Assembly (NCBI RefSeq): GCF_001647085.1 | Contig: NZ_CP015520.1 | Location: 1,322,219-1,386,218, forward strand | From: Thermococcus piezophilus | GTDB taxonomy: Archaea; Methanobacteriota_B; Thermococci; Thermococcales; Thermococcaceae | DNA length: 64,000 nt | Reading direction: 5' to 3' | Shown here: positions 9,761 to 62,475 of the stretch, piece after piece | Position numbering within the stretch: position 1 is the stretch's first letter | Layout: each line of letters opens with the position of its first letter | The notes under the pieces: generated by a model | Seen by the model: the letters and a program-made list of their open reading frames with translations, nothing else | Told to the model about the DNA's origin: nothing | Database searches by the model: none | Translations under genes and position numbers: made by a program

Positions 9761-10027
9761 CAAACTTTGCGGGGCAAAGTTTGATCAGAGATTAACTTTC
9801 TTCAAAAAAGCCAGAATGAGTTTGTATGTCTTCGAGAGTTGGCTTGTTGGAGGTGGGTTTCATTATAGATTCAGCACTCTTGAAGAAGTTTCCTAATTTT
9901 TTGGTGCTCGAAGAGCGTCTGGGAAGTAAAACCTCATAACACTGAAGTTGACAATGAGAAACCCCAAAACAGCGAGTTTTAGAAGGGACATACGAACCTT
10001 GATCAAACTTCGCGAAGGCAAAGTTTG
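9761..10027. repeat. Hairpin-ended repeat element, copy A
   Basis: A 267-bp stretch bounded on each side by a hairpin of the same sequence. Left: CAAACTTTGC, 3-base loop, GCAAAGTTTG (perfect, 9761-9783). Right: CAAACTTCGC, 4-base loop, GCAAAGTTTG (10004-10027, one mismatch). Read from either end inwards, both hairpins are followed by ATCA, so the ends form terminal inverted repeats. The right end begins 6 bases after the CCA of the minus-strand CAU tRNA. Inside, on the minus strand, comes AAGGTTCGTATGTCCCTT, which recurs in copy B at 55409. There is no open reading frame of note. The layout resembles a miniature inverted-repeat element, but no transposase or target duplication is seen. Confidence 0.6.
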
Positions 10028-10033
10028 TAGAAC

Positions 10034-10111
10034 TGGTGGGCCCGGGGGGCTTTGAACCCCCGACCACGCGGTTATGAGCCGCGCGCTCTGACCAGGCTGA
10101 GCTACGGGCCC
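10034..10111 (-). tRNA. tRNA with CAU anticodon (Met elongator or Ile2)
   Basis: Full cloverleaf on the minus strand with encoded CCA. The acceptor pair is GGGCCCG/CGGGCCC, the anticodon loop CTCATAA gives CAU, and the T arm reads GGGGGTTCAAAGCCCCC. The discriminator is A. CAU can be elongator methionine or the modified isoleucine-2 tRNA; the G1-C72 acceptor and GGGCCC stem are compatible with the isoleucine type, but I cannot decide from sequence alone. It is not an initiator, which in archaea begins AGC. It is the second gene of a two-tRNA transcript, 5 bases after tRNA-Asn. Confidence 0.9.
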
Positions 10112-27931: not shown

Positions 27932-27993
27932 GCGGCCTCGGCTAACCCTCTTTTCCTCACCGCTCAGTGTGGCTAACGCTCGTCATCGGCCAA
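27932..27993 (-). ncRNA. Candidate C/D box sRNA (minus strand)
   Basis: On the minus strand a GGCC clamp is followed by a C-like box GATGA, 15 bases, D' box CTGA, 3 bases, C'-like box GTGAGGA, 13 bases and an imperfect D box (CCGA) closed by GGCC. The box order and 12-15 base guide lengths fit archaeal 2'-O-methylation guide RNAs, although C' and D each have one mismatch. Both guide regions contain GTTAGC. A TATA element at 28011-28020 lies about 22 bases upstream of its first base. Targets not determined. Confidence 0.45.
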
Positions 27994-28039: not shown

Positions 28040-28113
28040 GGGGATGAGGAGCGTTTACCGGTCTGAACCCGCGCTCCGTGCGGCACGTGATGACATCGGC
28101 ACTGGCTGACCCC
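28040..28113 (+). ncRNA. C/D box sRNA
   Basis: Plus strand: a GGGG clamp runs into a C box (GGATGAGG), then a guide ending TTTACCGG, D' box TCTGA, a 20-base middle, a perfect C' box GTGATGA at 28087, a 12-base guide CATCGGCACTGG and D box CTGA closed by CCCC. The terminal GGGG/CCCC stem and the perfect C' and D boxes make this a strong candidate for a 2'-O-methylation guide bound by L7Ae, Nop5 and fibrillarin. It ends 2 bases before the convergent thymidylate kinase stop. Confidence 0.7.
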
Positions 28114-55199: not shown

Positions 55200-55222
55200 C
55201 TCCCTTGCATCGTATCATCGGT

Positions 55223-55299
55223 GCCCCGGTGGCTCAGCCTGGTGGAGCGGCCGCTTGGTAAGCGGCAGGTCGCGGGTTCAAACCCCGCCCGGGGCTCCA
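55223..55299 (+). tRNA. tRNA-Thr (GGU)
   Basis: Cloverleaf with acceptor GCCCCGG/CCGGGGC, encoded CCA and T arm GCGGGTTCAAACCCCGC. The anticodon loop TTGGTAA gives GGU. It lies 26 bases before tRNA-Pro and probably shares its transcript. Confidence 0.95.
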
Positions 55300-55325
55300 A
55301 ACTTCTTGGAACCTATTCTGGGCAG

Positions 55326-55403
55326 GGGGCCGTGGGGTAGCTTGGTCTATCCTGCGGGCTTTGGGAGCCCGTGACCCGGGTTCAAATCCCGGCGGCCCCA
55401 CCA
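55326..55403 (+). tRNA. tRNA-Pro (UGG)
   Basis: Cloverleaf with acceptor GGGGCCG/CGGCCCC, discriminator A, encoded CCA and T arm CCCGGGTTCAAATCCCGG. The anticodon loop TTTGGGA gives UGG. A hairpin-ended repeat element begins 5 bases after its CCA. Confidence 0.95.
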
Positions 55404-55408
55404 GAAAA

Positions 55409-55683
55409 CAAACTTTTGTCAAGCAAAAGTTTGATCAAAGTTCGTATGCCCTTTTGAACTTCCAGTTCTTTAAGTGGTTTCTACGAGTAAAAGACTATTT
55501 TATAGTGTTTCACTTCAACACGACTCCCTTTGGGCGTTAAAAGGAAAAAAATTGAACTCAAATTGTGGTGCTAAGTTCGGGGCGAATTCCTAACTAAGAA
55601 AGCACCTTCATGAGGAATGCACTCCAAAACTGGCCATTTTCACGGTATCTTACTTTGGTCAAGCTTTGCACTAGCAAAGGTTG
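55409..55683. repeat. Hairpin-ended repeat element, copy B
   Basis: A 275-bp stretch like copy A at 9761. The tRNA-side hairpin is CAAACTTTTG, 5-base loop, CAAAAGTTTG (perfect, 55409-55433), then ATCAAAGTTCGTATGCCCTT, which matches the same position in copy A. The far hairpin is CAAGCTTTGC, ACTA, GCAAAGGTTG (55660-55683, one mismatch), again followed inward by a GACCA/GATCA-like sequence. The interior has no open frame and, beyond the first 25 bases, little resemblance to copy A. Length, ends and position after a tRNA are shared. Confidence 0.6.
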
Positions 55684-55732
55684 CTATGTAATGTTTTTAT
55701 ACTGCTCCTGCCTAGGCCTTTAAGGTGTCGCC

Positions 55733-57892
55733 ATGGTCACGCTCATTATCGCCGAGAAGCCAAACGTCGCCAGGAAGATCGCCTACGCTTTGGCAGAGGG
55801 TAAACCGATCCGGAAGATTATAGGGAAGGTGGCCTACTACGAGTTCACCCGGGATGGGAAGAAAGTAATCGTCGCTCCGGCAGTCGGCCACCTCTTCTCC
55901 CTCGCCCCAAAGCAGAAGACCTACGGCTATCCGGTCTTTGACATAGAGTGGGTGCCTGTTTACGTGGCCGAGAAGGGGAAGAGCTACGCGAAAGACTACA
56001 TAAAGGCCCTGGCGAAGCTCGCCAAGCAGGCGGACGAGTTTATTGTAGCTTGCGACTACGACACCGAGGGAGAGGTTATAGGCTATACTGCCCTCAAGTA
56101 CGCCTGCGGTGTTGATCCCTCAAAGGCCAAGCGCATGAAGTTCTCGGCGTTGACGAAGAAAGACCTCCTCAAGGCCTGGTACAACCTCGAGCCGACGATA
56201 AACTTCGGCATGGCCGATGCTGGAATAGCGAGGCATGTTTTAGATTGGTACTGGGGCGTGAACCTATCGCGTGCCTTAACTTCGGCCATAAAACGCGCGA
56301 GCGGCAAGTGGATGGTTCTTTCGACGGGCCGCGTTCAGGGCCCTACGCTCAAGTTCCTCGTCGATAGGGAGAAGGAAATCCAGAACTTCAAGCCCACTCC
56401 GTACTGGGTCATAAAAATGCTCCTCGAGAAGAACGGGGAGAAATACACTGCAACATACGAAAAGGAGCGCATCCTCGACGAAGATGAGGCGAAGCGCATA
56501 GTTGAGGAGGCCAAAAGGGGGCCTGCCTTCGTGGAAAAGGTAGCGGTGAGACAGCAGAGGAGACACCCGCCAGTTCCCTTTGACCTCGGAACTCTCCAGA
56601 GGGAGGCCTATTCTGTCTTCGGCTACTCTCCCAAGAAAACTTTAGAGATCGCGCAGAAGCTTTATGAGAAAGGTTTACAATCGTATCCCCGTACCTCCTC
56701 ACAAAAGCTCCCCAAGAACCTTAACTTCCGCTCGATTATCCAGAACATAGCCAAGCTCCCGGAGTACAAACCCTTCGCCCACGAGCTCCTCGGGAAGGAG
56801 AACTTCAAGCCTGTCGAAGGAAAAAAGGATGACCCGGCTCACCCAGCCATCTATCCGACGGGCGAACTTCCAAAGCCTGGCGAGCTGATGAAGGACGAGC
56901 AGAACATCTATGACCTGGTAGTCAGGCGTTTTCTGGCCCTCTTTATGGAACCGGCCGTAAGGGAGACGATGAATGTCATCATCACCTCCAACAACCACCG
57001 CTTCATCCTGGGCGGTGCGAGGACCGTAAAGGAGGGCTGGCTCAAGGTTTACGGGAAGTATGTCAAGTTCGACGAAGTTATCCTGCCCTCCTTTAAGGAG
57101 GGCGAGCCTGTTAAAGTCATCCAGATAAAGCGCGAGAAGAAGAAAACGAAGCCTCCGGCGAGATATTCTCCCGCAGCCGTGATCAAGAGGATGGAGGACC
57201 TGGGCATAGGAACGAAAGCCACGCGCGCCCAGATACTCGAAACGCTCTACGCGAGGGGCTACATTGAGGGTAAGAAGAAGATAAAGGTCACCCCTCTCGG
57301 CATGCGCGTTGTCGAGGCCTTGGAGCGGAACGTTCCTGACATAGTCAGCGTCGAGCTGACGAGGGCCTTTGAGGAGAAGATGGAGGAGATAATGGCCGGC
57401 AAGGCCAGAAAGGATGAGGTCATTGAGGAGAGCAAGGAGCAGCTCGTCAAAATCCTCCAGGAGTTCAGGGAGAAGGAGATGGACATAGGGAAGGCCCTGC
57501 TTGAGACCACTGGAACGGGAGTGACCACAGGCAAAGAAAGCACCAAGCGCTCTGGGGCCGTGAAGGAGCTTAGTGAGGCCGAGGAGAGGGAAGCCAAGAA
57601 GGCAGTGGAAAAAGAAGAGAAAAAGCCCCTTGTAGTCGGCAAGTGCCCCAAGTGCGGCGGCGATCTGGTCGTCAGGTACAACAGAAAGACTGGAAAGCGC
57701 TTCGTTGGCTGCTCCAACTGGCCGAAGTGCAACGTTACCTACCCCCTCCTTCAGCGCGGCGAGATAATACCCACGAACAAGACCTGCTGCAACGGTGCTC
57801 CAGTGGTCAAAATCCGAGAGAAGGGAAGGGAATACGAAATCTGCCTTGACATGAACTGCAAGGATTGGAGATATAAGAAGGAAAAGAAGTGA
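55733..57892 (+). CDS. topA: DNA topoisomerase I (type IA)
   Basis: A 719-residue type IA topoisomerase relaxing negative supercoils. The Toprim start [20 protein letters not shown], acidic triad [13 protein letters not shown], and active-site region [16 protein letters not shown] with the tyrosine are present. A C-terminal linker leads to a zinc ribbon [20 protein letters not shown] with a following GCSNWPKC, and a last cysteine group CCNGAPV. Its stop abuts the convergent geranylgeranyl reductase stop with no spacer. Confidence 0.95.
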
Positions 57893-60944: not shown

Positions 60945-62475
60945 TCTAGAATTCTCCTAGAGTCTTATTGCAACCTTCCTCAACCGCCGAATCTTCTTCT
61001 CAAGCCTCTCAAGTTTCAATTCTCCTAGAGTCTTATTGCAATGGACGAGTTTGCGCTTAATAAGTCGAAATTCATTAATGTTTCAATTCTCCTAGAGTCT
61101 TATTGCAACTTAAGCCAGAGGGTTTTCCGGTTAAGCGGTTCGTCTTTGTTTCAATTCTCCTAGAGTCTTATTGCAACCAGGGGTAACTATTCATGACGTA
61201 GAGACCGCTGTGAATTGGACGGTTTCAATTCTCCTAGATTCTTATTGCAACTTGGTATTGGCGGGCTCATTGGGAGCTCCCATCACCAAGTTTCAATTCT
61301 CCTAGAGTCTTATTGCAACTACGCTTTATATATTTGCTCATAACTTCGACTTCGATGTTTCAATTCTCCTAGAGTCTTATTGCAACATTGTAAGTTTCGC
61401 AACAGGAGTGGGTATTGCACTCTGTTTCAATTCTCCTAGAGTCTTATTGCAACCGGTTTTCCTTTTCATTGATGAGGTCCAGAACCTTTGTTTCAATTAT
61501 CCTAGAGTCTTATTGCAACCTTAGATTGTTGAACCTTCCCAAGAACCCGAAAGATTAAGTTTCAATTCTCCTAGAGTCTTATTGCAACTATAAGAGCGTT
61601 CATGTGCAACCTTAGATTGTTGAACCTTCCCAAGAGCCCGAAAGATTAAGTTTCAATTCTCCTAGAGTCTTATTGCAACACACCGGAGGTCCAGACGTCC
61701 TTACGTACAAAGTCTAGTTTCAATTCTCCTAGAGTCTTATTGCAACCTCCTACAGTATTTTGTTAGGGACATTCGAACGGCGGAGTTTCAATTCTCCTAG
61801 AGTCTTATTGCAACGTCGACCACGCAATATAAGGCGCTGTAAAAGAATGTTCAATTCTCCTAGAGTCTTATTGCAACGATACAAACCCGAGCGCGACTTA
61901 TATTAGTATAGGTTTCAATTCTCCTAGAGTCTTATTGCAACACTGGCAGTCTCGACGCGAGCTATCTCACAAGCAGACTGTTTCAATTCTCCTAGAGTCT
62001 TATTGCAACCATTCGTCGTTGTTATTGTATAGTTACTAATGTCGATGTTTCAATTCTCCTAGAGTCTTATTGCAACTGCTGTTGTACTATGCAGCAGAAA
62101 ACAGCGTAACAATGTTTCAATTCTCCTAGAGTCTTATTGCAACCTAATGTGTCGATTATCTGGTTTGCGATTTTGTCATGTTTCAATTCTCCTAGAGTCT
62201 TATTGCAACACGGCAACGCGGTTTTGACTTTTTCGATGATTTTGAGTTTCAATTCTCCTAGAGTCTTATTGCAACCCGTCAAAGTTCGGCGACCTCATCT
62301 ACTACAAGGTCAGTTTCAATTCTCCTAGAGTCTTATTGCAACCCAGTTCCAAAGCCTAGCCAGAAGCCATCCTTACATGTTTCAATTCTCCTAGAGTCTT
62401 ATTGCAACGCCATGAATCCCATTGCTCCCATAAAGCTCGCAACTGGTTTCAATTCTCCTAGAGTCTTATTGCAAC
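60945..62475 (-). CRISPR. CRISPR array, 23 repeats of 30 nt and 22 spacers
   Basis: Plus-strand repeats start GTTTCAATTCTCCTAGAGTC and end TTATTGCAAC. The likely transcript is the minus strand, because the 8-base end ATTGAAAC matches the 5' handle of Thermococcales crRNAs and because the degenerate terminal repeat (60945-60974, first six bases lost) lies at the low-coordinate end. Most spacers are 34-39 nt; two are 44 (61178-61221) and 61 nt (61589-61649). Variants: the repeat at 61013 ends in T, 61222 has G to T, 61490 has C to A, and 61849 is 29 nt. The spacer at 61520-61558 is repeated at 61611-61649 with one change. Confidence 0.97.

Follow-up and report, generated by a model that had tools for sequence, protein, structure and literature searches.

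Hairpin-ended elements 3' of tRNA genes in Thermococcus piezophilus: a large Thermococcaceae repeat family and candidate non-autonomous mobile DNA

The region downstream of the tRNA-Pro gene of Thermococcus piezophilus raises the question of what a hairpin-ended, non-coding sequence that begins five bases past a tRNA might be, and why a related sequence should lie in the same way behind tRNA-Met. Both belong to the window, that is, the whole 64,000-nucleotide stretch that was analysed (G000:C1:1322219-1386218, where G000 is the genome, a single 1.93-Mb contig), and an earlier note on this DNA had described them as two copies of one design, here copy B and copy A, respectively. Their parts are listed below, R1 being a model of the tRNA-side end.

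55326..55403, + strand: tRNA-Pro (TGG), the gene upstream of copy B (ARAGORN and Rfam)
55409..55683, + strand: copy B, the entire hairpin-ended element (sequence; R1 matches at both ends, G000:1377627-1377698 on the + strand and G000:1377834-1377901 on the - strand)
55409..55433, + strand: left (tRNA-side) hairpin of copy B, a perfect 10-bp stem with a 5-nt loop (sequence; DNA fold)
55434..55454, + strand: conserved left arm of copy B, ATCAAAGTTCGTATGCCCTTT (pattern search)
55522..55538, + strand: central G+C-rich hairpin of copy B, imperfect (sequence; kept as helix 7 of alignment A2)
55660..55683, + strand: right hairpin of copy B, imperfect (sequence; DNA fold)
9761..10027, - strand: copy A, the entire element, 6 bases 3' of tRNA-Met (sequence; R1 matches G000:1332175-1332245 on the - strand and G000:1331979-1332045 on the + strand)
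10004..10027, - strand: left (tRNA-side) hairpin of copy A (sequence)
9761..9783, - strand: right hairpin of copy A (sequence; inverted repeat)
10034..10111, - strand: tRNA-Met, the gene upstream of copy A (ARAGORN and Rfam)

Copy B was found to be as described, with its perfect tRNA-side stem, no long open reading frame and the spacer GAAAA between the end of tRNA-Pro (55403) and the hairpin; the far-end hairpin that had been reported is also present, in an imperfect form. The arm that follows the left hairpin is indeed common to both copies: its counterpart in copy A is ATCAAGGTTCGTATGTCCCTT (9983-10003, - strand), and the pattern that unites the two arms has these two matches alone in the window when as many as 3 mismatches are allowed (0.02 expected). 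Chance similarity of the copies is ruled out by this arm statistic together with the size of the family and the tRNA-side placement detailed below. The interior letters of the copies differ and the architecture is common to both. The RNA fold of each copy is better than that of shuffled sequences (z -3.7 for copy B and -6.4 for copy A), and the DNA folds of the two strands of copy B reach z -3.3 and -2.6, levels attained by 1 and by none of 200 shuffles, respectively. The outer arm of copy B, GTATGCC, has an exact partner of just 3 nt near the right end; copy B is a worn copy whose outer pairing has been lost. The claim that both of the two tRNA flanks with room carry the element needs correction, as two of the six tRNA genes of the window directly abut another tRNA and four remain: tRNA-Met and tRNA-Pro with an element, tRNA-Thr (10514) and tRNA-Arg (43357) without, the latter two as had been stated. 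Elsewhere in the window, Rfam marks a CRISPR array with CRISPR-DR6 repeats (61080-62475, - strand) and two adjoining C/D box RNAs, sR34 (27936-27990, - strand) and sR12 (28042-28110, + strand).

Further copies were found by pattern searches in the same genome and in the genus. A blastn search with copy B reached only four places in its own genome, which led to the use of a covariance model. This model, R1, covers 71 positions of the tRNA-side end and was made from 29 of 35 left ends, where L013 duplicates L014 and L011, L034, L036, L040 and L042 were omitted because their hairpins or alignment were odd; two chance matches without a hairpin, L023 and L033, had been dropped earlier. Three of its sources (L046, L057 and L064) came from tRNA flanks and the others from pattern or similarity matches. 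At E<=0.01, R1 matches 58 of 61 genus genomes, with 0-46 matches per genome (26 in G000) and 1439 in total, some genomes carrying 0-3. At E<=0.001, it matches 76 of 115 genomes of the class, all of them Thermococcaceae (58 in genus g1, 3 in g11, 7 in g13, 7 in g14 and 1 in g15; 0 of 9 in g12), and 39 genomes are without a match, 19 of which are absent from the genome table; both searches used stricter filters and match lists of limited length, and per-genome counts were read from the genome tables. An exact end pattern, compared with 84,980 species genomes from which the near relatives of the window were perhaps excluded, found 5 stretches, all in Thermococcus or Thermococcaceae. Copies A and B are therefore members of a large Thermococcaceae family. 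Full-length alignment divides the copies into two subfamilies: in the first, the left arm resembles GCATGTC and the slices measure about 280 nt, while in the second the arm is GTAGCTC and the slices measure about 310-325 nt. A second end type, a hairpin with GCGCTGGCGGAAA behind it, is found within arrays and at further tRNAs. Rfam 15 gives no match to the element at gathering score in the window and 16 loci, and a relaxed search of 55200-55760 returned tRNAs and weak chance matches only; no known structured RNA family was identified in these searches. The family is apparently undescribed so far, since no description was recognised in a full-text search of the open-access literature, although other papers may describe it.

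The position of the copies is strongly tied to RNA genes. In three complete genomes, R1 gives 115 matches at E<=0.01 (26 in G000, 46 in G011 and 43 in G034) beside 44, 43 and 44 tRNA genes, respectively. As many as 27 of the 115 (9, 10 and 8) start within 30 nt 3' of a tRNA end on the same strand, while a simple estimate gives about 0.04 in total (0.009, 0.014 and 0.013), and 88 (19, 37 and 32) lie within 1.5 kb of a tRNA, a zone that makes up about 5% of the genome (5.1%, 4.4% and 4.6%). The ten adjacent starts in G011 all fall at a distance of 6-7 nt from the tRNA end given by Rfam, which places them 2-3 bases past CCA; overall, the gap from CCA to the left hairpin varies from about 2 to 15 nt. 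Copies also gather in arrays of two to five R1 matches each. Among the 27 matches more than 1.5 kb from a tRNA, 11 come from five loci in which a tRNA 3' fragment adjoins the element (L077, L120, L121, L125 and L129, read by eye), two adjoin the Pab160 H/ACA RNA, the first starting 4 nt past the RNA match, and 14 have no recognised RNA gene or fragment. By eye, 17 of the 44 tRNA 3' flanks of G000 open with an element end of any type and 27 do not; six further tRNAs, outside the 17, directly abut the next tRNA. The preference for RNA genes is not absolute: in L190 and L200, from two genera, the element starts right behind the stop codon of a protein gene, the same one in both, which ends MPRDWYPK(M/L)W. 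A scan for end hairpins scored 88 of 147 flanks and 112 of 1000 random positions, a comparison that is biased by loci mostly picked for holding elements and is therefore given no weight here. One array (L177, G011:259400-260700) is found downstream of the SRP RNA, with an R1 match at 259754, 81 nt past the SRP match, and another end hairpin between the two. The expectation that other Thermococcus genomes would carry the repeated element at tRNA 3' flanks is thus strongly supported by pattern searches, R1 and the position counts.

The interior of the element is also conserved, as structure. The two halves pair around the central G+C-rich hairpin, and in alignment A2 (11 of the 21 elements in A1) 91.0% of cells are paired as compared with 86.7% in shuffles, with changes on both sides in 27 of 67 pairs against 11.4 in shuffles, a value that 0 of 500 shuffles reach. 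Slid-structure controls show at most 13 such pairs, although the A2 structure was predicted from the same alignment and is favoured over them. In the second subfamily (A3, 8 of the 21), both-side changes are seen in 9 of 52 pairs and the covariation term is slightly unfavourable. Independently of any predicted fold, the longest exact match of a left arm averages 6.57 nt to the element's own right end and 4.72 nt to that of another element, and the maximum of 200 shuffles is 5.05, in a set of 149 reads that holds some spurious reads and some elements read from both ends; the partners include TAGCTC/GAGCTA, TATGTC/GACATA, CATGTC/GACATG, GTGATTC/GAATCAC, GTGGTTC/GAACCAC and GAATGTC/GACATTC. Template switching within quasi-palindromes could yield covariation without selection. 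The earlier note placed selection or exchange mainly at the tRNA-side end, a suggestion that finds no support in view of this paired interior and of a right end that is kept through compensatory changes; exchange as such is real, as follows from the comparison of related genomes.

A case of presence and absence is offered by the SRP RNA, which was detected in 60 of 61 genomes and examined at 30 loci. An element end lies 5 nt 3' of the SRP RNA in two of the 30, complete in L216 and with the left end alone clear in L231. In L216 (genome G086), an element of about 239 bp separates the SRP RNA from the next gene, by our reading pyrD; in G085, of the same genus, and in G116, the same two genes flank the site and the element is absent. 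The sequence past the right hairpin in G086 aligns with the empty sites of its relatives, and about 27 T-rich bases of the G116 empty site are not recognisable in G086, which points to insertion with loss, or to insertion and divergence. No target duplication was seen by eye at this copy, at copy B or at a copy 3' of tRNA-Cys in G068. The last genome is the nearest relative met, with 97% identity to G000 over 700 bp of topA. There, 30 of 37 R1 matches are represented as loci, and 27 of 30 overlapping loci match a compared G000 stretch, some in the flank alone, while three do not. Most G068 loci thus have a G000 counterpart, so that recent movement was not caught. Differences between the two genomes are found nonetheless: the tRNA-Cys flank is occupied by an entire element in G068 and by different DNA with another type of end in G000, the tRNA-Arg element of G000 is missing a part, and one hairpin in G000 contains a 40-nt palindromic module that G068 is without. 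Small palindromic modules (GGGACGATAGTCCC-like and others) were observed inside the end hairpins of several copies (L070 as compared with L148; L094, L122 and L177; the tRNA-Ser flank at G000:1808990), one being missing from its G068 counterpart. In addition, the topA locus of G067 carries a different element subtype 3' of tRNA-Pro, and two element-locus stretches of G011 reach 92% identity over 351 bp. The tRNA-Pro gene is reversed relative to topA, as compared with the window, in 8 of 30 loci (L094-L097, L107 and L116-L118), which suggests inversions at element-rich tRNA loci; in the two of these loci that were read, L094 and L095, the element has kept its place 3' of the reversed tRNA.

Conserved pairing at a fixed, close distance from RNA genes, with the end hairpin facing the tRNA, could also be the mark of a function in RNA. 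According to this explanation, the element is co-transcribed with the upstream RNA gene, and the long hairpin ends transcription, protects or processes the 3' end, or yields a stable small RNA. Some runs of T are consistent with such a role: TTTT is found within 47 nt past the left hairpin in 22 of 29 R1 sequences, shuffles giving 14.4 (sd 2.4); a T4 run lies within 120 nt in 14 of 17 flanks with an element and in 11 of 21 others; and the element at the SRP RNA occupies the T-rich stretch of the empty site. T5 runs within 60 nt past CCA, however, are equally rare with (2/17) and without (2/21) the element, so that the T-run counts are mixed as to whether the hairpin might end tRNA transcription. 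A fold that serves as RNA should show mismatches that are mostly G-U on the transcribed strand. Of 158 distinct flanks next to tRNAs, which are not fully independent and come from loci mostly selected for elements, 93 have a recognised end (71 of type I and 22 of type II); with pairs set by strand-neutral alignment, these 93 contain 180 G-U and 192 A-C mismatches (124 and 156 in type I, 56 and 36 in type II), and the 24 best-paired flanks give 61 and 87. The SRP RNA, treated in the same way as a control (9 distinct of 30 loci), shows 26 G-U and 8 A-C, which differs from the element flanks with a Fisher p of 0.002. The 65 flanks without a recognised end give 67 G-U and 86 A-C, and an earlier count over 109 reads, not oriented by the tRNA, gave 477 and 371. 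As no preference for G-U is present on the tRNA strand, unlike in the SRP RNA, a structure that is kept, or repeatedly copied, as DNA is favoured, and the counts suggest that the element is maintained at the DNA level. The tRNAs of G000 that do without an element, the genomes with 0-3 matches and the failure to match an Rfam family likewise speak against a function as RNA, as does the lack of any mention of the element in the parts available of two Thermococcus transcriptome papers (PMC4247193 and PMC5316973). The repetitive ncRNA loci sRkB and sRkC of Pyrococcus abyssi, which are reported to be specific to that species, related to OrfB elements and furnished with K-turns, resemble the family as repeated structured intergenic loci in Thermococcales; they differ in that the available text of PMC3124441 describes no tRNA link, and they are set apart by description rather than by sequence. 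All in all, we consider an RNA-level role, the main alternative, rather unlikely, albeit worth keeping in view, and the element may well be transcribed in any case.

We favour, with somewhat better than even confidence, the explanation that the copies are a non-autonomous structured (foldback) mobile DNA element that inserts, or is kept, just 3' of structured-RNA genes and forms arrays. The unit would be a non-coding element of about 240-320 bp with a hairpin at each end and halves paired around the central hairpin, and insertion or retention would take place a few bases beyond genes for structured RNAs, chiefly tRNAs, on their 3' side, further copies settling beside existing end hairpins to build arrays. 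An enzyme acting in trans would move the element, presumably by recognising its hairpins in single-stranded or cruciform DNA, and pairing would be kept at the DNA level. This reading is the most likely because it accounts for discrete hairpin-ended units in many copies, presence and absence at the SRP site, exchange, arrays, uneven numbers among genomes and a fixed distance from RNA genes. Counted against it are that no mobilising gene was found and no target duplication seen, that the gap from CCA to the hairpin is variable, that recent movement was not caught, and that two copies follow a stop codon and 14 of 115 matches have no RNA gene; so are the lost outer pairing of copy B, the terminator-like T runs 3' of the left hairpin and template switching as a source of covariation. 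No coding parent element was seen among the loci read.

Known mobile and repetitive DNA offers partial parallels. MITEs and foldback elements, for which the archaeal SM elements provide a comparison, are similarly short, non-coding and multi-copy, with inverted ends and no gene of their own, and the present family shares with them hairpin ends with paired halves, the lack of a long open reading frame and a size of a few hundred base pairs; it departs from MITEs, which are moved by the transposase of a related autonomous element, in that neither a target duplication (by eye, in three copies) nor a parent element (in the loci read) was seen, in its placement 3' of RNA genes and in compensatory changes that keep the internal structure. 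Casposons that insert at tRNA 3' ends leave a duplication of about 14 bp of the tRNA 3' end at the far side, and visual inspection of the sequence past the right ends of copy B and of the tRNA-Cys copy in G068 showed none.

The REP/BIME sequences of bacteria are extragenic hairpins with a conserved foot that occur as inverted pairs and arrays, and the family resembles them in all of these features and in its many copies, so that movement by a Y1 (RAYT-type) transposase could be envisaged. However, the unit is larger (240-320 bp), with a paired interior and a tRNA-side position, and PF01797 (Y1_Tnp) has no match in G000 and in 46 of 61 genus genomes, being present in 15. The number of R1 matches per genome is the same with or without it (mean 24.3 vs 23.3, p 0.89), and 27 genomes without PF01797 have at least 20 R1 matches. 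Mobilisation by RAYT/Y1 thus finds no support and is highly improbable.

Equally improbable is the explanation that the copies are remnants or passengers of plasmids and viruses with tRNA genes as their integration sites. In the five loci with a tRNA 3' fragment the element lies beside a fragment of integration type, and PMC8371274, in the parts consulted, reports Thermococcales elements whose att sites reach 243 bp. The element, however, is on the chromosome side of the fragment and therefore probably predates the integration, and copies also occur 3' of SRP and H/ACA RNAs. Carriage was rejected, with no matches for copy B in plasmids, for copy A in phages or for the exact end pattern in viral contigs. 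The pT26-2 and pTN3 families of Thermococcales, in the portions available of PMC6972569 and PMC8371274, also use tRNA 3' ends, by means of a tyrosine integrase that recombines inside the tRNA gene, and carry genes, whereas the hairpin elements lie outside the tRNA gene and carry none. Near 314.6 kb in G000 (L007 and L077), a tRNA-Gly 3' fragment stands beside an element and a possible integrase gene, a probable integrated-element scar.

A further-reaching form of the mobile-element reading can be put forward tentatively: the family may represent archaeal mobile DNA of a new class, one that homes to tRNA, SRP and H/ACA RNA genes at their 3' ends via single-stranded or cruciform hairpins, without target duplication, that builds arrays beside its own hairpins and that relies on a non-Y1 enzyme. 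If so, the 3' ends of RNA genes would be tied to a new insertion preference, which would bear on why rearrangements and integrations concentrate at tRNA loci and would be relevant to the annotation of the regions downstream of tRNAs. If our reading is right, the elements would rank as a major family of repeats in an archaeal genus that serves as a model, with up to 46 R1 matches per 2-Mb genome.
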